Origin: Afipia sp.
Lineage (GTDB): Bacteria > Pseudomonadota > Alphaproteobacteria > Rhizobiales > Xanthobacteraceae
DNA: 64,000 bases
Reading direction: 5' to 3'
Assembly: GCA_024707075.1 (NCBI GenBank)
Contig: JANQAK010000006.1
Location: 1 to 64,000, forward strand
Translations under genes and position numbers: made by a program
Shown: piece by piece, positions 5,950-30,380 of the stretch
How positions within the stretch are numbered: position 1 is the stretch's first letter
Layout of the letters: each line of letters starts with the position of its first letter
Notes under the pieces: generated by a model
The model's input: the letters and a program-made list of their open reading frames with translations, nothing else
What the model was told of the DNA's origin: nothing
The model's database searches: none

Positions 5950-7500
5950 TGTTGGCAGATTTTGTTGCAGAAGTCCGTTGAGGCATGCGGCGAACCGTGA
6001 TTCCATCCTGCTGACGCGAATCTTGGTGGGGGCAAGCCATGATGGGCCGGCTGAAGAGCGAACAAGCGCAGCTTTTCTACCAGTTTCAGCTCGACGACGC
6101 GGTTCCTGAAGATCATCTAGTGCGGAAGATCGATGCTGCTCTCGATCTGTCCTGGCTTCGCAGCGAACTCGCACCTCATTACTCGTCCACGGGCCGCCCA
6201 TCGATCGACCCGGAGCTGATGATCCGGATGCTCGTGGTGGGGTATGTCTTTGCGATCCGTTCGGAGCGATTGATCTGTCGTGAAGTGCAGGTGAACCTCG
6301 CCTATCGGTGGTTCTGCAAGCTCGGCATAGAGGACGCTATCCCGGATCACTCGGCATTTTCGCGCGCCCGCAATGAGCGTTTCCGCAAGGGCAATGTTTT
6401 TCGCCGCGTATTCGAGCGCGTCGTCGAGGCATGCATCGCGGCTGGTCTCGTTGGCGGTGAAGGCTTTGCAGTCGATGCAAGCCTGATCCAGGCCGACGCC
6501 AACAAGCAGCGCTCGATCGCGGGTCAGGACTGGCACAAGGATCGCGATCCGGAGACTGCCAGCCGCGCGGTGAAGGAGTACATGGCGACCCTTGACGACA
6601 CAGCCTGGGGGGCGGCTACCGACGTGGTCCCGAAGTTTGTCTCGCCATCCGATCCTGCGGCCCAGTGGACCGGGGCTAACAAGGGACCGGCATTCTTCGC
6701 TTACTCTGACAACTATCTCATCGACGTGAAGTTCGGCGTCATCGTTGACGTCGAGGCCTCCCGCGCCATTCGCCAAGCCGAAGTAGGCGCGGCCAGGACC
6801 ATGATTGAGCGAACGGAGGAGCGTTTTGGTCTCAAGCCAGAGCGGCTCGCGGCCGATACCGCTTACGGGTCGGCTCCGATGCTGAACTGGCTGGTCGAGG
6901 AGAAGGGCATCGCGCCACATATTCCGGTGATCGACAAGTCGAAGCGAGATGATGGCACCTTCTCACGCAGTGACTTCGACTACGACGCAGCAAACGATGC
7001 CTATCACTGTCCCGCAGGAAAGACCCTCACGACGACCGGGACGCTTGTGAATGATGGAACGACACTACTCTATCTGGCGAGAAAGCATGACTGCGACGGC
7101 TGCGAACTCAAAGCAATGTGCTGTCCCAAGAATCCATTTCGCAAAATTCCACGCAATCAACACGAAGCCGCTCGCGATGTTGCTCGTGCCCTCGCTGGCA
7201 CCGAGGGCTTCGAGCAGTCACGGCATGAGCGTAAGAAGATCGAGATGCGGTTCGCACACCTGAAGCGAATCCTGAGGCTTGGTCGACTTCGACTGCGCGG
7301 CCCGCGGGGTGCACAAGACGAATTCACGCTCGCCGCCATCGCCCAGAACCTGAGACGGCTCGCCAAATTGGGCGCCCGGCCGCCACCCTATGCGGTCCAG
7401 TGCCTCGCGTAGAGGAGATATTGCCTAACAGCGTCAGGGCCCAACAGGGCGGCACAACGGCCTAATCAGCAGACGCGACTTCTACAACAAAATCGGCACA
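5950..7500 (+). mobile_element. IS1182-type insertion sequence
   Basis: The element carries one DDE transposase gene and imperfect terminal inverted repeats. The left end at 5950-5975 contains GATTTTGTTGCAGAAGTC. The right end at 7477-7500, read on the minus strand, contains GATTTTGTTGTAGAAGTC. No convincing target duplication was found, so the exact ends are approximate. It separates the copper/SigF block from the CzcBA-type block. Confidence 0.75.
6039..7412 (+). CDS. IS1182 family transposase
   Basis: This full-length 457-residue DDE transposase has an N-terminal DUF772-type domain (LFYQFQLDDAVPEDHLVRKI, GRPSIDPELMIRMLVVGYV, then DHSAFSRARNERF). The catalytic core carries the acidic residues in VDASLIQADANK and ADTAYGSAPMLNWL. 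A Cys-containing segment (DCDGCELKAMCC) and a C-terminal DDE_Tnp_1 region (FEQSRHERKKIEMRFAHLKRI) follow. Start ATG 6039 is near the left inverted repeat, and no frameshift is visible, so the element could be active. Confidence 0.93.
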   Translation: MMGRLKSEQAQLFYQFQLDDAVPEDHLVRKIDAALDLSWLRSELAPHYSSTGRPSIDPELMIRMLVVGYVFAIRSERLICREVQVNLAYRWFCKLGIEDAIPDHSAFSRARNERFRKGNVFRRVFERVVEACIAAGLVGGEGFAVDASLIQADANKQRSIAGQDWHKDRDPETASRAVKEYMATLDDTAWGAATDVVPKFVSPSDPAAQWTGANKGPAFFAYSDNYLIDVKFGVIVDVEASRAIRQAEVGAARTMIERTEERFGLKPERLAADTAYGSAPMLNWLVEEKGIAPHIPVIDKSKRDDGTFSRSDFDYDAANDAYHCPAGKTLTTTGTLVNDGTTLLYLARKHDCDGCELKAMCCPKNPFRKIPRNQHEAARDVARALAGTEGFEQSRHERKKIEMRFAHLKRILRLGRLRLRGPRGAQDEFTLAAIAQNLRRLAKLGARPPPYAVQCLA

Positions 7501-18120: not shown

Positions 18121-19944
18121 CTATTCATCAGAAAGCAAGAGAACGCAGATATCGTCGTTAGGCGATAGAATAGTTGTACGCGTCTTTGCCCGTGTGATGC
18201 TGACCCGAAAGTTCTGTCTCGTTTGGCTCGATCGATTTACCCGTGAGTTCGATTGAACTATACGATCAGGATTAGCGACAATCTCTCGTTTTGCTCTGCG
18301 CGGCCAACCTTCGAAGATGATTACTTCGTCGAACTGTTTACCTTTCGCCTTATGCATGTTCATAACAACGACACCGCGCTCCGGCTTATGGCCCGTCGCA
18401 AAATGCTCTTGCACAAACGACTGACGGGTAACTGCCAGGGCGTTCTGATAGGCGCCATTGTCGCGCCAGTCCTGCGCCAGTGCCTGGCGTAACTGGGTTC
18501 CTCGCTCCAGGAGTCGGACATTTCGTACTTCGACGGCGATCTCTTTCAAGCGCGAGCAAGCTCCTTGCTCCAGAACCGATCGAATGGTTATCCAGTCCAC
18601 ATCTGGATCGCCAATCAACACGGCGGCGTATGCTTGTGAATAGACCGCTTGAACGGCAATAAGGACGCTCTTGCCGGGGACTGGTTTTCCTGCGGTCAGA
18701 CATAGCGTCCACTTCTGAAATGCGACCCGAAGTCTATTGGCCTCATCCATATTGCTTTTAGAGGGTGCGTTGCCGCCTTTTCCATGAAAGAAACTGCACA
18801 GTAGATCGACGAAATCGCCAAAATGACGCTCGCCACGGCGAGGCTGTAACAAGAACGCGACGACCTCCGCGGCTAGGATAGGGCCTTCCATGTCGACCGC
18901 GGCGGAGTGCGATATGGCGGGCAGCGTGCCCTGCGGCTCTCGAAGCGCGTCTGACACGAGTCGCGTCATTTTCTTCGTCGGCACGAGGATCGCCAGGGAC
19001 CAATTCTTCTTGCCAGTTTTGATAAGGCGCGCACGCGCCTGCAAGGTTTGTGTGGTGAGTGTACTAAACGCTTGGTTGGGGTTCGACTCAAAGCCCTGAA
19101 AATCAATGCCTAGGTATGTGTCCTGCCGAAATTTCCCCGTCAGGATGTCGTTACCGAAGGCCGCGATGTCGGTCCCCATGCTCCGATGATTGTCGGTGCT
19201 GAGATCGTGCGTCGTCGGTGCGAAGGCTATCTTGAAATGATCGAGACGTGCGGGGTCGGCACCGATGAAATCGAAGATCCGCTGTTCCGGGTCCGCAAGC
19301 GCGATCAGGGTGCTATTCTGCCCCAAAGCCTTCACGACAAGCCACTGGTCCGCGCTCGTGTCCTGAAATTCATCTAGGATGATGAACGGGTACTTGGTTG
19401 AAACGAGTTGTCGTATCTTTTCGGATCTGTGGAGAAGCGTGCCGACCTGGGCTGCGAAGAGGTCGAAGCAAATCTTTCCCTCGTCCCGGGCTAGGCGAAG
19501 TCTCTCCTCGTCTTCCCGCTGACGTTTCACCGCTTTCTCTATGTCTGTAAGCTTTGCATTCGCCTTGAACCCGCTGCGGACGGCGGAAAGCGCGATTGCT
19601 TCGTTTGGCGGAGTGAGAATGGTCATCTTTCGTGGAAAGCCGACGAGGTATCCGTGGGCCTTCAGGATTCGCCAAAAGAATGAATGATAAGTATCGACTT
19701 CGATCCGTCGTCTTTCCTCGGCCGCGATCTGGCGCTCCTCGTCAATGGCTTCCAAGACGCGAGAGACGGTGGCTCGCGCGAAACTCAGAAAGAGAATTGT
19801 TTGACCTAGCCGCAGATGTTCACGGGCGATCCTGGCAGCCTTCAAGATCGAAACCGTTGTCTTGCCCGAACCGGGACCGCCCGTGACCAGCAAGTGGCCA
19901 TTCGTATCTAGGATCTGTTGCTGTACTTTGGTAAGGTCAACCAA
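18121..19944 (-). CDS. gajB: Gabija protein GajB, UvrD-like helicase
   Basis: This 607-residue superfamily 1 helicase has Walker A TGGPGSGKTT at 21-30, motif Ia/Ib features, Walker B FIILDEFQDTS near residue 190, motif III LIALADPEQRIFDF, motif IV LSTDNHRS and the C-terminal motifs VVVMNMHKAKGKQFDEVI and RVSITRAKTRT. It starts 11 bases after the stop of an OLD-family nuclease gene. OLD nuclease plus UvrD-like helicase in this order is the Gabija anti-phage system, in which GajA cuts DNA and GajB senses nucleotide depletion or DNA ends. It is somewhat longer than the Bacillus GajB I know (about 500 residues). Confidence 0.85.
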   Translation of the reverse strand: MVDLTKVQQQILDTNGHLLVTGGPGSGKTTVSILKAARIAREHLRLGQTILFLSFARATVSRVLEAIDEERQIAAEERRRIEVDTYHSFFWRILKAHGYLVGFPRKMTILTPPNEAIALSAVRSGFKANAKLTDIEKAVKRQREDEERLRLARDEGKICFDLFAAQVGTLLHRSEKIRQLVSTKYPFIILDEFQDTSADQWLVVKALGQNSTLIALADPEQRIFDFIGADPARLDHFKIAFAPTTHDLSTDNHRSMGTDIAAFGNDILTGKFRQDTYLGIDFQGFESNPNQAFSTLTTQTLQARARLIKTGKKNWSLAILVPTKKMTRLVSDALREPQGTLPAISHSAAVDMEGPILAAEVVAFLLQPRRGERHFGDFVDLLCSFFHGKGGNAPSKSNMDEANRLRVAFQKWTLCLTAGKPVPGKSVLIAVQAVYSQAYAAVLIGDPDVDWITIRSVLEQGACSRLKEIAVEVRNVRLLERGTQLRQALAQDWRDNGAYQNALAVTRQSFVQEHFATGHKPERGVVVMNMHKAKGKQFDEVIIFEGWPRRAKREIVANPDRIVQSNSRVNRSSQTRQNFRVSITRAKTRTTILSPNDDICVLLLSDE

Positions 19945-19955
19945 TGTCGCGGCCC

Positions 19956-21819
19956 CTATCCGAGCAATGCGGCGACATCGTCAGGAAGTTTTTTCGCGGT
20001 CGTTGGCAGATCCTCTGCGGCGACAAGCGGCGGATCGCATAGCGCCTTAAGCTTTGCGCAAGACTCGCGGAGCCATTGCGGGATTTCGGCTTCGCTGCAC
20101 TGCGCGAGGAAATCAGCGACACCCCAATTTCCCTTCGACCACGCGAAATATTCGCCGATTGCTGCGACGGCCTTGGCCTTCGGATTCGGATATTTTACCA
20201 ATAGATGGGGAGGCCAACTGAGCACATCTGCAAAGCGCTCCAGTGCGGCTTGAGTGGTGTTTTTTAGGACCAATCCCTCAAAGCCTTTTTCATCATGCAT
20301 GAAGAGGTGTTCGACCTGCGCCTCAATCGCGGCTTTGCTTGTGATTGATTGCTTGTCGCATGCGCCAAAGGTTCGCTTTCCCAAGCTGCGATACAGCCCC
20401 GCTAAATCAGCAATCTGGGTTTCCGTCCCCGCATCGATCGTGCAAATGCCTAAGGCTTCCAGCGAGTCGTACTTGTCGGGATTGAGTTCGGCTAAGCGTC
20501 TTGCCACTACCGGAAAGGATGCGGCCTCTGTCGCGCCTTCCGCGATCAGCACTCTGCGCGAAAGCAGACCTTCGCAGAAACGGGTTCGGAACTCTTGCCG
20601 ATAGCGTTTATGCTTCACGCTATCTGGGAGCACGATTGAAGCTTGGGTCAGTTGGCCTGTCGATGACCTGGAGAGAATGACCGTCTCTGCAAGGCTAAAC
20701 TCTTCCAGCACATAGGGTGAGTGTGACGTGAAGATCGACTGTGAGGACAGCTTGCGAAGCTCATGAACGATGCGCTTCTGCGCGTAGGGCGGAATCGCCG
20801 TTTCTGCCTCCTCCATAGCAAAGATCACATTCTGCTTGTCTTCGGCGATCTGCGAAAGCATCGCCAAAACGAGCATGTTGATCGTCCCCGTTCCCTGGCG
20901 AAAAAAAGGGCGCAGCGTGATCCCCGTCGCCCGTCGCGATGAAGGCGGTAATGACCTTGCGCAAATTTTCGCGGGTCAGAGTCGAAACCTTTAAGTGCGG
21001 TTTCACACCCCACTCGCGAGGCACATATTTCTTAAGGGACCTGTTGATGGTTTCTAGCACTCCCGAAATGCCAAGTTCCGGGTCGTGGGCGACATTAAAA
21101 GACGAGAGACCTGAGATAGTGTCTTCCCACATCTGGGGTCTGATCTCTTTCAGCCTCAGAATTATGTCTAGAAGGCTTCCGTGCTCTAGGCTGAGCGCTC
21201 TGGATCCCGTCCGCAAGGACCGCAGATAGAGAAAGCCGCATTTCTGCTTGTCCTTCTTTGTGAAGGGCTGCGGCGTATCACTCTCCGTAAGGCTTCTAGA
21301 GAAGTAGGTATTCCCGCCAAAATCGTCCTCGTCTTGATCGTATTGGCCGATGAAGGTGACGCGCAGCGCCGCAACGATTGCTGCAGCATCAACACCAGCC
21401 GGATCCGGTACGTCATAAAGCAGGCCGCTTGTGATGTTCAGCCATTCGATATAATCCCCAAATCGCGCCTGCTGCTCTTCCGATAAATCCGAGATGGTCA
21501 CCTCAATTACAATCCGGGGTGCGGACTCTGCCTCGTCTGGGCTTCCAACGTCGGCCTGCGCGGGGCTGCCCACTATATTTGAGGCGCTTGGCTCAGATTT
21601 CGCCGCCGGCTTGGCGAGGTACTTGCCGAGAAAAAAGTCATGTTCATCGACTGGCGGGCGGCGATTGAGGCGATCAGGTCCCAAGACCAAGTCGATTGCT
21701 TCAAGAACGCTCGACTTTCCCGTGTTGTTGTCTCCGATAAGCACCGCATGATTAGGAAGTGTGAGAGTGGCGAGCAGTATCCCTCTGAAATTCTGTATCG
21801 ATATCTTGCTTATTCTCAC
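19956..21819 (-). CDS. gajA: Gabija protein GajA, OLD-family ATPase-TOPRIM nuclease, one frameshift
   Basis: The N-terminal ABC-type ATPase has Walker A GDNNTGKSS (29-37) and Walker B-like NVIFAMEEAETAIPP, with a switch His in FTSHSPYVLEEF. The C-terminal TOPRIM nuclease has RVLIAEGATEAASFPVVAR, ICTIDAGTETQ and FGACDKQ. The frame is broken in the T7 run (A7 at 20891-20897 on the plus strand). As written it reads APFFSPGNGDD and soon goes wrong. With one T fewer it reads APFFRQGTGTINMLVLAML and continues to the stop at 19956, giving about 620 residues. The lesion could be a sequencing error, slippage control or true inactivation. It forms an operon with gajB. Confidence 0.83.
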
Positions 21820-22283: not shown

Positions 22284-23453
22284 CTAATCTCCTAAGTTAA
22301 GCATTGGCTTTATGGAATTTCGTTCGATCAAGCGGGAAAAGCGTTTGTAGTTTTGGTGGTCTCGCTGCCATCGACCGGCAACAACCGAAATATGCACGCG
22401 TGCTCGAGACGAAAGCGCATGTAGTTCATCAAGACTTGTGGAATCATTCCAATCAGTTTCTGAATGAATTTGCGGAGGAATGAGAGAAGTCTCTCTTGCA
22501 AGGGCATCGGCTTCCCTTTCGAAGTCGTCCTCACCCCGTATGTCCATGTCATCGATGAACGCTTCGTTCGTCCGAATCATTTCATTAAAATGAAGCGTTA
22601 CGTGCGCGCATTCGTGCAAGAGCGTGTACCAGAAGTTATCGATGCGGTCGTGCCGCAGGGTAAGGCCGATTACAGGAGTCCCCTTTTGATTGACCATGGC
22701 GGCGCCATCTAAAAATGTGCCGGGAAGAGCAGGCAAAATCACAACAGAAATTCCGAATGTGACGAGCCTGTCGATCGCCTGTCTCGGGCCGTCCGCTCTT
22801 ACGCTTAGCTTGGCGAGCTGTCTCAAACTGTCTTTCGTAAATGCCGAGTGCTTGAATTGGCTCTTGAGAGGTGATTGTTCTGAGCGCTGCAGTATTGCTG
22901 CTTGCCATAAAAGAAGAGCGTTTTGATCGGTCTTGGACGCGGCGCGCTGGGTGCGCGTCTTCCTCAACAGGGCAAGTGAAGGATTGCTCATAGACGCTGA
23001 AATGAAGGCGCCAATGTCATTTGCTCTGATGTTGAAGCCGAGCTCATTCAACTTATCGACAACCGGAGTAGATACATTTCCATGATCGTGAGTTGAGCTA
23101 CGTCCACTTATGAGAGACTCATAGGGTATGCCCAAGCCTTCATGTAGGGACCTAATCATATCAATCGAGAGCTGCCTCTTTCCCGAAAAAACTTCGGAGA
23201 TGCGGGCGCGCGTTCCTATGAATGGCTCCAGCTGTCGCGCAGAAAGTCCTTTCTCGTCCATGCGGAATTTTATTGCCGCGACAGGCGTCGGCGCATCAAT
23301 CGGCGTGTGCTTCTGTTCGTACTGTTCAATCAACGTAGTCAGAACTTCGATTTCATCATCGTGCTGATCCGTGTTCGGTGCCGTCATCAGCAAAGCCAAT
23401 CGGGCTTTCGATGTCCTCAGGTCGGCGGGCGTGCGAATGGGCTTGATGGTCAT
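22284..23453 (-). CDS. higA: HigA-like antitoxin fused to ImmA/IrrE metallopeptidase
   Basis: This 389-residue protein has two parts. Residues 1-115 are HigA-like (MTIKPIRTPADLRTSKARL, VLTTLIEQYEQKHTPIDAP) with an XRE helix-turn-helix (GLSARQLEPFIGTRARISEV, then KRQLSIDMIRSLHEGLGIP). The C-terminal half is an ImmA/IrrE-type zinc peptidase with HECAHVTLHF (HExxH). Such proteins control and can cleave partner regulators or antitoxins. The open frame extends upstream to 23735 only because the toxin gene is frameshifted into it. The natural start is ATG 23453, which overlaps the restored toxin stop (ATGA). The paired TCCCA operators upstream are its likely targets. Confidence 0.78.
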   Translation of the reverse strand: MTIKPIRTPADLRTSKARLALLMTAPNTDQHDDEIEVLTTLIEQYEQKHTPIDAPTPVAAIKFRMDEKGLSARQLEPFIGTRARISEVFSGKRQLSIDMIRSLHEGLGIPYESLISGRSSTHDHGNVSTPVVDKLNELGFNIRANDIGAFISASMSNPSLALLRKTRTQRAASKTDQNALLLWQAAILQRSEQSPLKSQFKHSAFTKDSLRQLAKLSVRADGPRQAIDRLVTFGISVVILPALPGTFLDGAAMVNQKGTPVIGLTLRHDRIDNFWYTLLHECAHVTLHFNEMIRTNEAFIDDMDIRGEDDFEREADALARETSLIPPQIHSETDWNDSTSLDELHALSSRARVHISVVAGRWQRDHQNYKRFSRLIERNSIKPMLNLGD

Positions 23454-23735
23454 TGTTTTATAGTCCGGTAAGGCGTTGGGGCAGCCAGCGCGGTGAGGAG
23501 GACAGTGCGCCTCCTGAAGTCGATGAGAGTGTCGATCTCGCAGGGCGGTAGGCTGAAGGTAAAAAACTACTGCGGGTAAAGCCGAAATATCGACGAGGCC
23601 GAAATCGGCCTTTAGCGCGCTGGCGCAGTCCCAGTCGCGGTGACTCATTTCCGACACCCAGGCCCGCACCAGCGGGCTGTAGTCTGGCCGTCCGCTTAGA
23701 AAGGCCGAAACTTCACTTTGCCCTAAGAATCGCAC
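23450..23735 (-). CDS. higB: HigB-like toxin, one frameshift
   Basis: From GTG 23735 (GGAG seven bases upstream) the frame gives MRFLGQSEVSAFLSG, LVRAWVSEMSHRDWDCASAL and KADFGLVDISALPAVVF. These match the spacing of HigB-type RNA interferases. The frame then fuses artificially to higA. Removing one T from the T6 run (A6 at 23561-23566 on the plus strand) gives FTFSLPPCEIDTLIDFRRRT, VLLTALAAPTPYRTIKQ and a TGA overlapping the higA ATG. This ideal overlap argues that the 94-residue product is the natural one. HigB family membership is a weak match at the C-terminus. Confidence 0.55.
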
Positions 23736-23749
23736 ATTGCACTCCGCGA

Positions 23750-23762
23750 TCCCATATTGGGA
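23750..23762. promoter_or_regulatory. Operator 1 of a palindrome pair in front of higBA
   Basis: TCCCATATTGGGA is a 13-bp inverted repeat (TCCCA/TGGGA arms), 15 bases before the higB start. It forms a pair with 23800-23812, centre to centre 50 bases, both followed by CCA. Likely bound by the HigA-ImmA protein, which would place higBA and the divergent 23868 operon under one repressor. Confidence 0.75.
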
Positions 23763-23799: not shown

Positions 23800-23812
23800 T
23801 CCCAATATGGGA
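23800..23812. promoter_or_regulatory. Operator 2 of the palindrome pair
   Basis: TCCCAATATGGGA has the same TCCCA/TGGGA arms as operator 1 with an ATA centre. It lies 55 bases before the ATG of the divergent operon at 23868. The 50-bp spacing (about five helical turns) would let two dimers bind the same DNA face. Confidence 0.75.
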
Positions 23813-23867: not shown

Positions 23868-24320
23868 ATGCGCCGATTGCGGATTTTTACGAAGCATCTG
23901 ACGTCCGAGGAAATCGCCGCCCTTTCGGCGCTGGCGGCCGCTAGCGGATTTGCAGCCGACGAAATCGAGACGGTTTTAGAGATCGGCGCGCCCCTCGTTG
24001 ATTGCGACGACGAGGTGATCTTGATCCCGATATCCGCAGCGGCGTGTGCGGCGCCCGACCTCGAAGACGATGTGAAGCAGGTCTCCAACGGGGCGCGCCG
24101 CGCAATATGTGTGTGGCCCGAAGGCGCTGAGGCCGAGATCGAGGTGCCAGCATCGGCACGCAAATATGCTTATTCCATTGTGCCGTGGAACGCCGAGAAG
24201 TTACAGGCGGCCGCGGCCGACGATGATGTGTTGATCTTTGAGATGCCGTCGGGAGACGTAATTCCCAAGGTCTACACCGAGCGCAATCTGTGTGTTGACG
24301 AGGAGGCCCAGCCGAAATGA
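23868..24320 (+). CDS. Hypothetical protein preceding the Nmad2-MazG gene
   Basis: The ORF encodes 150 acidic residues. Start ATG 23868 is chosen over the longer frame because GGGAGG lies eight bases upstream and because the longer start overlaps operator 2. Visible segments are MRRLRIFTKHLTSEEIAAL, AASGFAADEIETVLEIGAPL, ARRAICVWPEGAEAEIEVPA, YAYSIVPWNAEKLQAA and DDDVLIFEMPSGDVIP. The second half has an alternating strand-helix pattern compatible with a small alpha/beta fold. I do not recognise the family. Its last codons overlap the ATG of the Nmad2-MazG gene (ATGA, 24317-24320), so the two proteins are probably made together. Confidence 0.7.
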   Translation: MRRLRIFTKHLTSEEIAALSALAAASGFAADEIETVLEIGAPLVDCDDEVILIPISAAACAAPDLEDDVKQVSNGARRAICVWPEGAEAEIEVPASARKYAYSIVPWNAEKLQAAAADDDVLIFEMPSGDVIPKVYTERNLCVDEEAQPK

Positions 24321-26641
24321 ACGTCTTCTTCTATGTCATCGAGCATGATCTCGGATTCGCGCCGAATCCCTTCCACGGCGTGTGCAGCCTGGGATGCTGC
24401 AAGCCCGATATTCGCAAGGTAGCGGAGGTCGGCGATTATGTGCTGGGCACCGGCGCCGTGAAGCCGAAGTTGCGGGGCCATCTGACCTATTGGATGAAGA
24501 TCGACGAAGTGCTGACGTTCGATGAGTACTGGGCGGATCGGCGATTTCGTCGCAAGAAGGCGGTGATGCACGGTACGACGCATCTGCGCTACGGCGACAA
24601 TATCTATCACCGCGACGACAACGGCACGTACCATCAGGAAGATTCCTTCCATAGTAACGACGACGGCAGCGTTTCGCTTGGCGATCTGAAGCGCGATACC
24701 GGCAAGACCGACAAGGTTCTTCTCGGCCGGACATTCGCATTCTGGGGCCGCTCTGGCATTCCGATCCCGCCGGATATTGCGTGCTTCCTCAAGACCGGCC
24801 CTGGTCACCGGTACAGATTCACCGAGCCTCAGAAGCAGGAGATTGTAGCCTGGATTGAAGGCATGCCCGCGCGAGGCAACGTTGACGAGCCTGCGCATTG
24901 GCAATTCCTCGAAAAAGAAGAAGCGCAAGCCGAAAGAGCGGCAGGGGAGGGCATGATGCAGGTCGCTCATTACCAACAGTTCGTTCGGCAAACCAACCAG
25001 TTTATCGCCAAGCCGCGCGATGAGGCGCTCTCGATCGCGATGTACGGTCTCGTCGGTGAAATAGGCCAGCTGGTGGCCGCCGTTAAGAAGAAAGTGCTCG
25101 GCGAAGGCGGTGAGACGGGCTGGGATCAGCCCAACGACGAGATCCGCGAGGAATTGGGCGACGCCTTCTGGTATCTGTTCGCTGCCGCGCAGCTCGCAAA
25201 CGACGGTCCCTTTGACGTTCTGACCGGAGACATTGAGAATCTCCGTGCCGAAATCGGCGGCGCGGATGAACGCGCGCGTACTATCGCAGCAGCGCTTGAT
25301 CCCCGGGCGCGTACGGACTTCCTGGAAGAAGCTGCGCGCTTTCCTGCATCGCCCGATTTCCTGTTCGACGATTATCAGAAGCTCGCCTTTAAAACGGCGC
25401 GCACCGACGGCAGGGTGCTTATCGAGGTTTGCCAAGCTGTCTTGTGGCAACTCGGTGCCGAACTTCTTCGCCCATCGCTGCCCGCTATCGAGATCGACTT
25501 AAACCAGAATGTCGCTGACCGACCGACCAACGTCGTGCTCGGCGAAATAGCGTGGCATCTGTCGGCAATGGCCAGTCTGTACCATCTTTCGCTTGACGAT
25601 GTCATTGCGTTCAATCGCACGAAGGTCAGCTTCCGCTCTGAGCGCGGCGCGCCGACCGCTCTGCATGACGAGGCCCGCGATCCAAAAGAACAATTTCCCC
25701 GCTGCTTCGACGTGTCTTTCGTTCGCGTCGGGCCAGGACAATCACGCATGTATTTTGGTGGCAGGCCGCTCGGCGATGATCTCAGCGATAACTTCTACGA
25801 CAACGACGGCTACCGTTTCCACGATGTGATCCACCTTGCTTTCATCGCCCATCTTGGCTGGTCGCCGGTCATTCGCGGTCTCATGAAGCGTAAGCGCAAA
25901 AGTGGCAACGATCGGGTCGATGAAGTCGAAGACGGAGGTCGCGCGAAGGTTGTCGAAGAACTCGTGATCAAAGCCATCCATTCGGAAGGCGATCGGCAAG
26001 CACGAGCGTCCGGCCGTTGTATTGTCGGCCAGCCGACGCGACTGTTTCCGCGCCGCTCGCTTATCAATTTCCGTCTTTTGAAGACGCTGCGCATGTATGT
26101 CGAAGGCTTGGAGGTTTGGCATAATACCTTTTGGGAGTGGGAAGACGCTATCTTCGCGGGTTGCGAAATGTTTCATCAGTTATGCCAGGAGATGCAAGGG
26201 ACCGTGCACGTCGATCTTGCGAACCGCCGCCTCACTTTTGAGCCTACCGTCTCGCCAAACGTGCAGGGCATCACCGTCGGCCTCGGCATGGGGGCGGCGG
26301 ACCTTGCGCCGTCCGACCGCGAGGTGAAAAAGATGTTGTCAGCGCAAGAGCGGGCGGAGGCGACGACGCCTGCGCGTCTGGCTTACGTGCTCGCCGTGAA
26401 GCGCGCGCTCATGGGCGCGCTCGGACTGGACGCTGCCTGTGAAACCTATTGGTCACAGATCGAAGTTCGACTCGATGACACAAACGCGCTCTATGTGAAA
26501 GCGAGAGAAAAGGCTCTCGATCGGGCATGGGCATTGCGGGCAGTCGATTATAAGGCCGCGTTCATCGAATCGGCTGGCAGTATTCTCTGCACCGTCACGG
26601 CGATCGCCGATGTTGCAGACGTGGTGGATGTATCAAAATAG
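24317..26641 (+). CDS. Nmad2 domain fused to MazG-like domains (nucleotide/DNA modification)
   Basis: This 774-residue multidomain protein begins with Nmad2 (nucleotide modification-associated domain 2) at about residues 1-180: FFYVIEHDLGFAPNPFHGVC, LGCCKPDIRKVAEVGDYVLG, IDEVLTFDEYWADRRF, YGDNIYHRDDNGTYHQEDS and FWGRSGIPIP. A MazG-like NTP pyrophosphohydrolase helical bundle follows at about 225-300 (YGLVGEIGQLVAAVKKK, IREELGDAFWYLF). A second MazG-like segment lies near 355-440. Around 480-580 is the region typical of large MazG-related proteins (NDGYRFHDVIHLAFIAHLGW, then KRKRKSG). Families are those of Iyer and colleagues' DNA-hypermodification neighbourhoods. It converges with, and overlaps by nine bases, the HMUDK-type gene. 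The biochemical reaction is unknown. Confidence 0.8.
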   Translation: MNVFFYVIEHDLGFAPNPFHGVCSLGCCKPDIRKVAEVGDYVLGTGAVKPKLRGHLTYWMKIDEVLTFDEYWADRRFRRKKAVMHGTTHLRYGDNIYHRDDNGTYHQEDSFHSNDDGSVSLGDLKRDTGKTDKVLLGRTFAFWGRSGIPIPPDIACFLKTGPGHRYRFTEPQKQEIVAWIEGMPARGNVDEPAHWQFLEKEEAQAERAAGEGMMQVAHYQQFVRQTNQFIAKPRDEALSIAMYGLVGEIGQLVAAVKKKVLGEGGETGWDQPNDEIREELGDAFWYLFAAAQLANDGPFDVLTGDIENLRAEIGGADERARTIAAALDPRARTDFLEEAARFPASPDFLFDDYQKLAFKTARTDGRVLIEVCQAVLWQLGAELLRPSLPAIEIDLNQNVADRPTNVVLGEIAWHLSAMASLYHLSLDDVIAFNRTKVSFRSERGAPTALHDEARDPKEQFPRCFDVSFVRVGPGQSRMYFGGRPLGDDLSDNFYDNDGYRFHDVIHLAFIAHLGWSPVIRGLMKRKRKSGNDRVDEVEDGGRAKVVEELVIKAIHSEGDRQARASGRCIVGQPTRLFPRRSLINFRLLKTLRMYVEGLEVWHNTFWEWEDAIFAGCEMFHQLCQEMQGTVHVDLANRRLTFEPTVSPNVQGITVGLGMGAADLAPSDREVKKMLSAQERAEATTPARLAYVLAVKRALMGALGLDAACETYWSQIEVRLDDTNALYVKAREKALDRAWALRAVDYKAAFIESAGSILCTVTAIADVADVVDVSK

Positions 26642-27697
26642 ACCTTCGGTGATTCGCGTGTTGATGCCCCATTTCGGCGGATACCAGGGTGCAGGCGCGA
26701 TCTTACCGGGTTGAAATTTCTGCTTGATACGTGTGCGTCCGGCGACTCCGGAGTATTCTGGGAATGCGACGCGGGCATATTTAGAGATTTCGCAGAACAG
26801 GTTCTGGCAATCGATCAGTTGCAGCGAGCGTCCCCATAGCGACTTGAAATCGATACCCTGGGTGGCGAAATGCTCTTGCTGGGTTTCCCACATATAACGG
26901 ATGATATCTTCGGCGCTAATACCATCTACGCCGACGAAACATTTATGAATGCCATCGAGTGCGCCGGGCCCCGCGACGACGAAGTCGTCCTCCGCGAAGT
27001 TGGTCAGCCGACTGTAGTTGAGATCAGTTGCATACTGGTACGCAAGGAAAGGGCCAACCGAAGGTATCGAGCGAAGAAGGGCGAACGCATCCGCCATTTT
27101 CTCTGTTGCGACATACCGCGCAGGGAATTCTTCCTTCACAAGATATGCAAGCATCTTGAGATGGTTTTGGTGCTTGGCGCTGTGTCCGAAAAAGCTACCG
27201 GCTGACGGCATGATATAAGCAGCCGAATATATACGCCTGCCCGCTTTCATGCATTGCGCGAGAACGCGATTATAGCGTTCGTAACTGAACGTCTCCCAAA
27301 CGATGGGGCCCACCGTTCTTTCAAGCATTTCCCAAGTCTCGATCTTGTTAAATAACTTGAAAAGTAGCGTGCGAAAGAAGACGTTTGTTTTGTCATTGGG
27401 CAAATCGTCACGGTAGATGACGCTGCGGATCAGGTATTGGCTGACTCTGTCCGAGGCGCGGTACGCATTCGTGAATTTGTAAACGCTCAACACCGGATCG
27501 CTCGTCGTTTGCGTAAGTGAACCCTGCAGGCGTCGAAAGAAGATGCGTTGCCGCTCAGCAGCGAAATACCAGTACGCAGCGAAGACAGGTGTCGTTGTGA
27601 TGGCTTTGCCGCGGATCTTCACAGACAGCCGGGGCCGCGACGACGCTTCGCGGCTATCCGCGAAAGGAAAGGAAGGGGAAGAGTCGGCGTATGTCAT
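26633..27697 (-). CDS. HMUDK/alpha-glutamyl-putrescinyl-thymine pyrophosphorylase family protein
   Basis: This 354-residue protein has the conserved start of the HMUDK_hel family (5-hydroxymethyl-dUMP DNA kinase, helical domain; earlier aGPT-PPlase): FAAYWYFAAERQRIFFRRLQ, DPVLSVYKFTNAYRASDRVS and QYLIRSVIYR. Its glycosylase-like helical region contains SIPSVGPFLAYQYATDLNYS and FVVAGPGALDGIHKCF. Phage members phosphorylate or pyrophosphorylate 5-hydroxymethyluracil in DNA during thymine hypermodification. No thymidylate hydroxymethylase is visible here, so the bacterial substrate is open. It faces the Nmad2-MazG gene tail to tail. Confidence 0.82.
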   Translation of the reverse strand: MTYADSSPSFPFADSREASSRPRLSVKIRGKAITTTPVFAAYWYFAAERQRIFFRRLQGSLTQTTSDPVLSVYKFTNAYRASDRVSQYLIRSVIYRDDLPNDKTNVFFRTLLFKLFNKIETWEMLERTVGPIVWETFSYERYNRVLAQCMKAGRRIYSAAYIMPSAGSFFGHSAKHQNHLKMLAYLVKEEFPARYVATEKMADAFALLRSIPSVGPFLAYQYATDLNYSRLTNFAEDDFVVAGPGALDGIHKCFVGVDGISAEDIIRYMWETQQEHFATQGIDFKSLWGRSLQLIDCQNLFCEISKYARVAFPEYSGVAGRTRIKQKFQPGKIAPAPWYPPKWGINTRITEGLF

Positions 27698-27898: not shown

Positions 27899-30380
27899 CT
27901 AGATCTGTGATTTCGAGCTTGAGAAACCAAGGGCGCGACTTTGCTCCAACCATGCCAGCGGTAAGGTCTTCGGAATCCGCGCGAGCGACATCTGCGGCTG
28001 GTCGCCGTTGAGAATGGCCGCAATAATGGGCGGCGCGAGGAAGGCATAACGCAGTTCTTGCCGCAACAGCTTCGGATGCAGCTTGACCGAGGCCGCCAGC
28101 GCCTCAGCTGTGTCAAATTTCAAATTCTTTAGATCACGCAGCCACGCATGGGCTCGAACAATGGCCTGAACCAGTTTTGCGTCAGGCTGGCGTTCGCTGT
28201 CTTGCTCAATAATTGCCGCTGCCCCCGCTGGGCGCACCTGCCAAGGGATCGTGAATCTATTCGATCGAATCTTTGCTGCCGGCGTGGGGGTGATTTTGAT
28301 AGCGCGGCTGCTTAGTTCGGCACGTGCGACATAATCGCCAATAACATCTGCATCCAACACGGATTTGTCGATTTTCAGCCGTTGGCGCAGGGCATTGATT
28401 AACGTCCCTTCGATGTCGGTCGCCGAGACACGTGCGACCGATCCGGCTTCAATTTTGCGCCCGCGCAGGACTGCTGAGCTGACATAAAAGCGATAACGGG
28501 CGCCGTTCTTTGACGAAAAGCTCGGGCTCATCGCGTTGCCGCGATCATCGAAAAGCTTGCCCATCAGGAGTGCTCCGCTTTCGGATCGTTTGATTTTCCG
28601 TTTGCTAGTGCTCGCTGCCAGCAGTGCCTGCACCTTGTCGAAGGTTCCGCGGTCGATGATTGCCTTATGCTCGCCGGGATACCACTTGCCGCCGTGACCA
28701 GTTTCACCAATGTAAATTCGGTTTTTGAGGAAATGAGCGAGAGGGCCGTACGTGAATGGAATGCCGCCGTTGAACTTCTTGACCTTGGTGTTTCGCCGCT
28801 TGGTGACGACGCCGCGCTTGTCGAGATCGGCAACAAGGCGGCCAAAGGACTGCAGCTCGACATAGCGGCGGAAGATGATGCGGACGGTTTCTGCTTCGAT
28901 GGCATTGATGACGAGCTTCTTGTCCCGAGCCTCGTAGCCGAGCGGCACCGTGCCGCCGGTCCACTTTCCTTTGCGCCGAGAGGCGGCAACCTTGTCCCGG
29001 ACGCGCTCGGAGGACAGCTCCCGCTCGAACTGGGCGAAGGAGAGAAGGACGTTGAGCGTCAGTCGTCCCATCGAGGTCGGCGTATTGAACTGCTGGGTGG
29101 CCGCCACTTCATCGAAGGTTTGGCCGGTGGCGTCGAGGATGGCGTCGCGCTTGGTGAAGTCCTGCCAGCGGCGAATAGCGACGTCGATGTAGAGGGGATC
29201 GATCTCGATCCCGAAAGCCTTACGGCCTACTTTTTCGGCCGCGAGGATAGTTGTGCCAGAGCCCATAAATGGATCGAATACAATGTCACCTCGCCGCGAG
29301 CAGTCGCGCATGGCGTCAGCAACCAGAGCGACCGGTTTCACCGTTGGATGAACCGACAGATCCGCAAGTCGATCCTTGCGGAACGAATTCACGCCGGCGT
29401 ACTGCCAGACATTCGATCTGGAACGGCCATACTTGCCGAGCTCGATATTGTTTTGGTAACGGCCGGTGCCGTTCTTGAACACGAGGATTAGTTCGTGCTG
29501 AGAGCGATAAAAGCTGCCTTGTCCGGCGTTTGATTTGACCCATGCGATGATGTTCTTCAGTTCGGTGAAGGCCTGTTCGCCGGCAGCAAGACACTCTCCA
29601 AGATGTCTCCAATCCATGCAGCAAAAGACAATAGCGCCATCCTCCGTATATCGGGCGGCTAGAGACATCCACCGAGTGAGGAATTCGGTAAATTCGGCAC
29701 GTGACATCTCGCCAGAGGCGGCCGCAAACTCACGATGCTGAATTTTTTCCGCGTCCTTGCACGGACCCGATCCGTACGTTGTACGGCGGATCCGTGAAAA
29801 TCATGAATGCCCGGGTGCTGCCCATCAATTGTTTGATGTGAAGCTCATCTCTGGAATCTCCGCACAAAAGCCGATTATTCCCAAGTACCCACAAATCGTC
29901 CGCACGGCTTACGGCGCGGGCTTCGATTTGAGGGATATTATCAGCAGGCTCGCTTTCGAGATCGGCAAAGTCACACATAAGACTGTCGATCTCAGCAGCC
30001 TCGAAGCCGGTAATTTGGAGGTCGAGGTTGTATTCTGGAAGGAGCGTCGCTAGCTCCCCTAATTCAGCGGCAAGACGTGAATGATCCCAACCTGCATTGG
30101 CCGCGATCTTGTTATCAGCAAGCACAAGAGCTCGTTTTTGAGTTTCAGTGAGTCCCGTTTTGATGATGATCGGAATCTCACGTTGTCCAAGCGTCGTGGC
30201 GGCAAGATAGCGGCCGGTTCCGGCAAGGATCATCCGGTTCTCATCGGTCAAAATCGGAATCGTCCAGTCAAATGCCTGAATACTGTCGGCGATCTGCTTG
30301 ACTTGGCTCTTCTTGTGAGTCCGAACGTTACGGGGATTTTGCTTAAGCGTGCCGATCGGCACCCATTGGACATTGAGCAT
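27899..30380 (-). CDS. ParB domain-DNA methyltransferase fused to truncated serine recombinase, one frameshift
   Basis: The start is ATG 30380 (GGAG site upstream). Residues 1-110 are a ParB/Srx-like domain (VPIGTLKQNPRNVRTHKKSQ, LAGTGRYLAATTL). Next comes a DNA N4/N6 methyltransferase of the order motif IV (FTDPPYNV, near 196) then motif I (DPFMGSGTT, near 370). From about residue 427 the sequence switches to the interior of a large serine recombinase (TQQFNTPTSMGRLTLNVLLS, FERELSSERVRDKVAASRR, then a Recombinase domain), lacking the catalytic Ser part. The frame breaks in the T6 run at 29743-29748. One base fewer joins GRGKIQHREFAAASGEMSR. As corrected it is about 826 residues. Confidence 0.78.

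Follow-up and report, generated by a model that had tools for sequence, protein, structure and literature searches.

Gene organisation of the locus

The window analysed here comprises 64,000 nucleotides of an Afipia sp. contig (JANQAK010000006.1). As originally predicted, it contains three open reading frames at 23868-24320 (+), 24317-26641 (+) and 26633-27697 (-), the first two being ATGA-coupled and the last two overlapping by 9 bp tail-to-tail. In the window sequence, the middle frame is a joint Nmad2-MazG ORF of 774 aa. Pfam matches above the cut-off were obtained for Nmad2, MazG, MazG_C and HMUDK_hel, confirming the Pfam-level assignment of Nmad2 and HMUDK_hel. The genes do lie within the limits first proposed (23868-27697), but the unit extends further, to a divergent HigB-like/HTH-ImmA pair and a set of shared palindromes. 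Features are as follows, with L001-L003 denoting related loci used for comparison.

22284-23453, minus strand: HTH and ImmA/IrrE-peptidase protein (PD-Lambda-2_B-like; PADLOC 5.7e-113), probable regulator of the unit; start set by comparison with L001
23454-23735, minus strand: HigB-like relative of PD-Lambda-2_A (partial PADLOC match, residues 1-61, 9.5e-5; frames read separately); limits approximate, frame interrupted here
23750-23762, no strand: operator-like palindrome 1, kept in L001-L003
23773-23778, plus strand: conserved -35-like TTGACG between both palindromes, putative promoter element
23800-23812, no strand: operator-like palindrome 2, located at the probable promoter of TIRL, kept in L001-L003
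23868-24320, plus strand: TIRL, 150-aa divergent TIR-like protein (flavodoxin-type fold), TIR catalytic residues probably absent
24317-24931, plus strand: Nmad2 domain (PF18753, 4e-58), predicted PUA-superfamily fold (AF2 and Foldseek/VIA); separate ORF in L001-L003
24953-26641, plus strand: MazG (PF03819, 1.1e-5) and MazG_C (PF18722, 6.4e-56) protein of 561 aa if read from the second Met codon of an internal ATGATG (alignment with 120 homologues); joined in frame to Nmad2 here
26633-27697, minus strand: HMUDK_hel protein (PF18723, 2.2e-103), 354 aa, without P-loop kinase motif

Three aspects had been overlooked in the original prediction: the divergent regulatory pair, the TIR relationship of the 150-aa acidic protein (described as unrecognised), and the base-reader fold predicted for Nmad2. 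The Nmad2-MazG fusion that it proposed is found to be local. Both domains are present according to Pfam, but MazG relatives are mostly ~558 aa long, query coverage never exceeds 73% in the 120 matches listed out of 194, and Afipia massiliensis encodes Nmad2 and MazG as separate, overlapping ORFs. Fusion was thus rejected as a recurrent architecture. The two genes are joined in the window because of a one-base length difference from L001, in an A-run near 24912.

The metal site of MazG nucleotide pyrophosphohydrolases has the form ExxE...ExxD. An alignment of the MazG protein with 120 homologues reveals E35 in 117/118, E66 in 116/117 and D69 in 116/116 sequences, with position 38 occupied by S (113) or Q (5 of 118). 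By eye, the 558-aa protein could plausibly hold a second MazG domain in tandem; this was discarded following an hhalign probability of only 1.4.

A TIR-like protein is paired with a predicted base reader

Profile comparison indicates that TIRL is a divergent TIR-like protein. The TIRL profile aligns with TIR proteins occupying the same Nmad2-paired slot elsewhere (hhalign probability 96.6), and PADLOC reports a match to ThsB (6.7e-8). TIRL has zero Pfam matches, and a search by sequence for solved relatives returned nothing convincing. Foldseek searches with the TIRL model gave no match at E 0.001, the best reaching E 0.043, and the fold match is not TIR-specific. TIR NADases are characterised by a catalytic Glu and an N-terminal FISxxx motif. 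In an alignment-dependent count over 77 sequences, aligned position 68 is E in 36, D in 22, N in 13, A in 3, Q in 2 and another residue in 1. TIRL possesses neither the conserved N-terminal FISHHH nor the Glu position, again as judged from the alignment. It probably lacks the TIR catalytic residues, and a scaffold or adaptor role is therefore probable.

The AF2 model of Nmad2 (pLDDT 79.8) has Foldseek/VIA matches to ASCH, THYN1, YTH and others, and Nmad2 is predicted to adopt a PUA-superfamily fold, as found in modified-base readers. At the sequence level, 0/21 Nmad2 proteins have a Pfam match to ASCH/EVE/YTH families, and no convincing solved relative was found.

The genes for Nmad2 and a TIR-like protein recur as a pair, usually directly abutting each other, and are found together in 14/16 plasmid records (a 24-residue Nmad2 scrap in G532 was excluded from this count). 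Many of the Nmad2 partners elsewhere are ThsB_TIR proteins (PF08937). Seven Nmad2 loci were found on IMG/VR contigs, which may include host DNA, and 5/7 have no detectable upstream TIR. With regard to a viral origin, tblastn of the L028 Nmad2 at 1e-5 gave 0 matches in 50,697 phage records. Literature searches returned the name Nmad2 only in three unrelated papers; no Nmad2 fold or partner was described in the papers searched, TIR joined with Nmad2 was absent among the matches listed, and no report of reader-TIR pairing was found.

HMUDK_hel lacks a kinase motif and seems interchangeable with a UDG-superfamily protein

The HMUDK-type assignment stands for the helical domain, but not for the kinase activity implied by the name. 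A kinase reading was rejected because the P-loop motif is missing: Walker A is absent from the window protein and from 120/120 relatives listed. Among 53 HMUDK_hel-matching ORFs of the surveyed loci (some counted twice), a single ORF, in L049, contains Walker A in addition to the helical domain. Comparison of HMUDK_hel with HhH-GPD glycosylase by hhalign gave a probability of 1.0 (E 0.051), aligned on an HhH-like motif, versus 0.1 for the control. None of 31 HMUDK_hel members has a Pfam HhH match, and no solved relative identified by sequence was convincing (best E 0.099).

In the nine genomes found, the MazG_C neighbour is HMUDK_hel in four and a UDG-superfamily protein in five. As either can adjoin MazG_C, the two seem interchangeable at this position. 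This exchange makes the role of stand-alone HMUDK_hel proteins directly testable.

A common control region links the operon to a HigB/HTH-ImmA pair

The HTH-ImmA gene occupies an identical divergent position in L001, L002 and L003. The HigB-like frame is open in these loci and interrupted in the window, with a one-base length difference near 23537. The pair and the TIRL operon have a common control region with two conserved palindromes. The palindrome pattern, drafted after the sites were known, has 2 matches versus 0.01 expected; in L002 and L003 the second palindrome has a wider centre, with 5 unpaired bases versus 3. The -35-like element TTGACGGCAAG is common to all four control regions compared. 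Inspection by eye 3' of the B gene revealed no candidate for the PD-lambda-2 C component.

The gene set recurs across genomes

Co-occurrence of the genes, an expectation of the original prediction, is observed: the set is found again in Afipia and Bradyrhizobium, in Rhodococcus (canonical TIR, same layout) and on a cyanobacterial plasmid (canonical TIR, different gene order). Intact relatives of the operon include plasmid-borne sets in Rhodococcus jostii RHA1, Cupriavidus basilensis and Beijerinckia indica, and a set in Bradyrhizobium betae. For contigs of at least 5 kb, 35 equal lengths are common to the 63 distinct in the HMUDK list and the 89 distinct in the MazG list (at least 120 relatives each; one HMUDK row of the 120 lacked a length and was excluded), a rough comparison since length is a stand-in for contig identity. 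MazG relatives occur in 34 plasmid records, partners having been surveyed only where reached via Nmad2.

A single PF00303 thymidylate synthase is present in the whole genome; the match is full-length and lies on another contig, with none among the window proteins scanned with Pfam. The proposed absence of a thymidylate hydroxymethylase thus holds within the PF00303 search. Same-genus sister operons do have a second kind of thymidylate synthase: in them, TIR-Nmad2 is accompanied by HMUDK_hel, a TylF-type methyltransferase and a homologue of thymidylate synthase.

Proposed model and alternatives

Nucleotide- or base-centred defence, one of the readings first offered, is still the best description of the module, and we put at about even the chance that the locus is a modular anti-phage system of this type. 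On the best reading, what the base-reader/TIR pair detects is thymine or uracil in an unusual state. HMUDK_hel (or UDG) would act on an unusual thymine or uracil base in invading DNA, while MazG-MazG_C would handle the nucleotide matching that base. Nmad2 would read the modified base, or the product, and switch its TIR partner, which would arrest the infected cell directly or via an effector. In the Afipia version, with its TIR lacking likely catalytic residues, the TIR would probably act as scaffold or adaptor; the HigB/HTH-ImmA pair, sharing the operator region, would contribute control and probably a toxic output too.

A more specific proposal is put forward only tentatively: TIR-Nmad2 could serve generally as an immune pair, its PUA-fold modified-base reader directly gating the TIR. 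The trigger would be a viral non-canonical base, either as such or after excision or transfer by HMUDK_hel or UDG; in the Afipia version the TIR would have become a non-catalytic adaptor, the output having moved to HigB/HTH-ImmA. If true, the coupling of a base-reader fold to TIR would suggest a purpose for Nmad2, and bacteria would have a means of recognising phages through the base alterations that shield them from restriction.

An unlikely alternative is that MazG and HMUDK_hel, UDG or thymidylate synthase make or trim a thymidine-derived nucleotide, which Nmad2 binds and to which TIR, patatin, SIR2 or HigB respond, as in CBASS, Thoeris and Clover. Such a soluble signal is consistent with genes for patatin-like lipases lying close to TIR-Nmad2 in L028, L062, L063 and L066 (just below the Pfam cut-off in L028 and L063), with an annotated SIR2 gene in L070, and with the control of Clover by dTTP and a thymidyl dinucleotide stated in the available text of PMC12265719. 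However, 0/8 window proteins scanned with Pfam are nucleotidyltransferases, the HMUDK_hel and UDG families are named after DNA work, and an effector with a known ligand-binding domain was not seen in the window unit.

It is also possible, if distinctly unlikely, that the enzymes hypermodify host thymine and that Nmad2-TIR attacks unmarked DNA, as in restriction-modification. The composition of the sister operons and the presence of modified-base readers among PUA folds both fit this scheme. Host DNA modification is nevertheless weakened by the single PF00303 thymidylate synthase in the genome, and the missing P-loop motif also argues against it. Furthermore, a UDG-like protein takes the place of HMUDK_hel in many systems, and removal of a base therefore fits better than installation.

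We regard as improbable that the island is an inert remnant, formerly active and now decaying in the window strain. The one-base differences that interrupt the HigB-like frame and join Nmad2 to MazG, a third that splits GajA (near 20901), and the presence of a methyltransferase and a recombinase part in one ORF (27899-29707) could indicate decay. Yet the remaining in-gene length differences across 18.1-27.7 kb are multiples of three, HMUDK_hel, MazG_C, Nmad2 and TIRL are all whole, and 2/3 of the one-base differences lie in A-runs, which are prone to assembly errors. The literal model of an Nmad2-MazG fusion with a DNA kinase phosphorylating hydroxymethyluracil is scarcely tenable: the PF18723 family name and the L049 ORF speak for it, but neither Walker A nor the fusion is found among the 120 relatives listed for each protein.

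Comparison with known systems

Several parts of the unit are already named as defence domains in the available text of PMC13092281. The predicted defence parts include aGPT-PPlase, MazG, MazG-C and a nucleotide-modification-associated domain, while both a 5-hydroxymethyluracil kinase and a thymidylate synthase domain are found among the validated E. coli systems; TS, dNMPk, 5hmdUk and NMAD are abbreviated in the Fig. 3 legend and UDG in that of Fig. 6F. These DefensePredictor systems name the same kinds of parts as occur in the window unit. The available text leaves operon sharing and the NMAD family unspecified, and contains no TIR partner, base-reader fold, UDG/HMUDK_hel exchange or HTH-ImmA control.

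Phage thymidine hypermodification of the M6 and ViI type (available text of PMC9599517) resembles the unit in its HMUDK_hel of the aG/PT-PPlase1 kind, going by relatives' names, and in the thymidylate synthase partner of the same-genus sister operons. In contrast, the window unit has neither a thymidylate synthase homologue nor a kinase motif, and adds the TIR-like protein, Nmad2 and MazG_C. With respect to Thoeris, TIRL is a divergent relative of the Nmad2-paired ThsB_TIR proteins (PF08937), but it is partnered by Nmad2 and lacks FISHHH and the Glu; no SIR2/ThsA-type effector was matched by Pfam among the 8 window proteins scanned. As in the PD-lambda-2 described in the available text of PMC9519451, the window has HigB-like and HTH-ImmA/peptidase genes in the same order; it differs in that no third component was identified by eye, and in the palindromes common to the pair and the TIRL operon.

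The whole words Nmad, TIR and MazG are all absent from the main text of the EVE/DCD context survey (PMC7641849). ASCH/EVE/YTH readers resemble Nmad2 in predicted fold, although not at the level of Pfam matches. One example of these modified-base readers, of the EVE type, is the restriction enzyme VcaM4I. Nmad2, in contrast, is paired with a TIR protein rather than a nuclease.

Gene layout and the Nmad2-MazG fusion

The layout of the unit was found as originally predicted, with the start of the 774-aa ORF lying inside the stop of the 150-aa gene and the convergent 354-aa ORF overlapping the 774-aa ORF by 9 bp. Pfam matches bear out the Nmad2 and MazG assignments (774-aa ORF) as well as that of the HMUDK_hel helical domain (354-aa ORF), and place a MazG_C domain in the 774-aa ORF too.

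Genes of the unit
23868-24320, + strand, TIRL gene (divergent TIR-like protein, 150 aa), no Pfam match
24317-26641, + strand, ORF of 774 aa with Nmad2, MazG and MazG_C, by Pfam
26633-27697, - strand, HMUDK_hel ORF of 354 aa, by Pfam

The 5.30-Mb genome contains one copy of HMUDK_hel, and a Walker A motif is seen in none of 120 HMUDK_hel relatives among the matches listed. MazG retains three of the four positions that we take to be its metal-ligand set, the fourth being S or Q in 118/118 aligned relatives.

The proposed fusion of Nmad2 to MazG proved to be local only. Most relatives of the 774-aa protein measure ~558 aa, and coverage never exceeds 73% in the best 120 of 194. The matching locus of Afipia massiliensis (L001, 92.8% DNA identity) has two overlapping ORFs, one for Nmad2 and one for MazG, and the genes are likewise separate in Bradyrhizobium betae and a MAG (L002, L003). 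An 11-kb DNA alignment of the window with L001 displays one-base length differences near 24912 (in an A-run), near 20901 (in an A-run, splitting GajA) and near 23537 (in the HigB-like gene). The remaining in-gene length differences between 18.1 and 27.7 kb are multiples of three; further single-base differences are intergenic, apart from one at 27918, close to where the recombinase ORF ends. The one-base differences may reflect mutation or assembly error, the alignment being compatible with either.

A Gabija system (GajB, GajA; 18121-21819) directly adjoins the unit, with GajA present as two ORFs compared to a single 620-aa ORF in A. massiliensis. On the other side, a single ORF (27899-29707) combines a DNA methyltransferase domain with part of a serine recombinase. 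In L001 a recombinase ORF and a methyltransferase-like ORF are separated by several kb that include a terminase-like gene (by eye), which suggests that DNA was deleted here at the border of an integrated element.

TIR and Nmad2 form a gene pair

Plasmids were surveyed with the Nmad2 of L028, a sister operon from the window's genus, and 16 records (17 places) matched. TIR or TIRL lies directly upstream of Nmad2 on the same strand in 14 of these (15 places), and is absent from that position in L075 and L076. It is directly upstream in all 10 genome loci examined (window, L001-L003, L026-L029, L048, L053), which were found via HMUDK_hel, MazG_C or the joined query and include two from one species (L001, L029). 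On IMG/VR contigs a TIR is upstream in 2/7 Nmad2 loci, and the L028 query had no match among 50,697 phage records. TIRL and Nmad2 fragments adjoin MazG_C-UDG in L045 (G532, near 6321-6551, with Nmad2 scrap L060), apparently a decayed pair.

MazG_C is accompanied by HMUDK_hel or UDG

The co-occurrence proposed as a check was observed. In the phylum sample, three genomes, including the window's own, carry MazG_C and HMUDK_hel adjacently, with ~0.05 shared genomes expected by chance. HMUDK_hel occurs in 5/398 and MazG_C in 4/398 genomes of that sample. Together with the order sample (249 genomes), nine different genomes bear MazG_C; its neighbour is HMUDK_hel in four (G000, G026, G443, G612) and a uracil-DNA-glycosylase (UDG) superfamily protein in five (G393, G479, G483, G532, G824). 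The UDG assignment is above the Pfam cut-off in L045 and L048, slightly under it in L047, and by BLAST in L046 and L050. The order in G483 (L048), MazG_C-UDG-TIRL-Nmad2, is the window set with UDG replacing HMUDK_hel. Neither partner was found in the 16-kb locus that contains a truncated MazG relative (L004).

Among the 16 plasmid records, MazG_C-UDG is near TIR-Nmad2 in eight, and MazG_C with HMUDK_hel in two (Rhodococcus, Gloeothece). Two others carry thymidylate synthase (TS)-TylF-HMUDK_hel, one HMUDK_hel with a radical SAM gene, one MazG only, at the record's end, and two no such partner. Rhodococcus pRHL1 has the window's layout but a canonical TIR. The 22.6-kb cyanobacterial Gloeothece plasmid pP742404 (L062) encodes phospholipase, HMUDK_hel, MazG, TIR and Nmad2 consecutively. 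In a Parabacteroides plasmid (L065, 6624-7589), the radical SAM enzyme follows TIR-Nmad2-HMUDK_hel and is possibly a further base-modifying partner.

Sister operons

By Pfam, L028 comprises a divergent patatin-like gene, ThsB_TIR, Nmad2, a TS homologue, a TylF-type methyltransferase and HMUDK_hel; the TIR-to-HMUDK_hel genes recur in L027 and L029, from the same genus (HMM or BLAST). A. massiliensis carries both system types (L001, L029) on one contig, ~48 kb apart. Patatin-like genes are also near TIR-Nmad2 in L062, L063 and L066 (matches in L028 and L063 slightly below the Pfam cut-off), while other such loci neighbour metallophosphatase (L022, L072, L074) or annotated SIR2 (L070), AbiJ (L026) and SLOG/TIR (L053) genes. 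Such varying outputs round a fixed core would be typical of sensor-effector immunity.

Other HMUDK_hel or UDG sets were also seen. In L020-L024, L049 and L051, HMUDK_hel and MazG_C recur with a TS-like protein (weakly matched by Pfam, in L051 alone) and a family with an IrrE-like peptidase (Pfam run on the L022 member alone), and a TS-like relative accompanies UDG and MazG_C in L045-L047 and L050. Related 241/280-aa proteins precede HMUDK_hel in L025 and L052, that of L052 being dCTP-deaminase-like (Pfam). The sole Walker A carrier among 53 HMUDK_hel-matching ORFs (L049, 8855-10612) possibly represents a true kinase architecture.

Control region and proposed mechanism

The divergent minus-strand pair is PD-lambda-2-like (PD-Lambda-2_B match 5.7e-113). 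In PD-lambda-2, B is reported to be toxic, A to neutralise it and C to be required for defence (PMC9519451). A TCCCA-N3-TGGGA palindrome occurs twice in the intergenic region, against 0.01 occurrences expected in the window for a pattern chosen after the sites were seen. Both copies are identical in L001 and longer-armed in L002 and L003, where the second has a wider centre. Their spacing is ~50 bp throughout, with TTGACGGCAAG between them in 4/4 control regions (window, L001-L003). HTH-ImmA is inferred to be the repressor of both operons, and infection may relieve this repression through the ImmA domain.

Gene content, pairing, partner exchange, the predicted Nmad2 fold (PUA superfamily) and the common palindromes form the basis of a proposed mechanism. 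Nmad2 would sense the base, HMUDK_hel or UDG would perform base chemistry and MazG_C would handle the nucleotide; the TIR would then be switched, with toxic output presumably via HigB/HTH-ImmA. The main rival is that the signal is a soluble nucleotide, and Clover shows that defence can be gated by thymidine nucleotides (PMC12265719).

Comparison to known systems

The literature covered, including the accessible portion of DefensePredictor (PMC13092281), yielded no mention of TIR paired with Nmad2, of a fold for Nmad2, of an exchange between UDG and HMUDK_hel or of the palindromes at HTH-ImmA. That portion lists validated E. coli systems including a 5-hydroxymethyluracil kinase and a thymidylate synthase domain, and its legend abbreviates TS, dNMPk, 5hmdUk and NMAD. 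Among predictions that still await a test, drawn in part from Burroughs 2015, it further names aGPT-PPlase, MazG, MazG-C and a nucleotide-modification-associated domain. Since DefensePredictor, as far as its available text goes, names such parts, the kind of system is already known.
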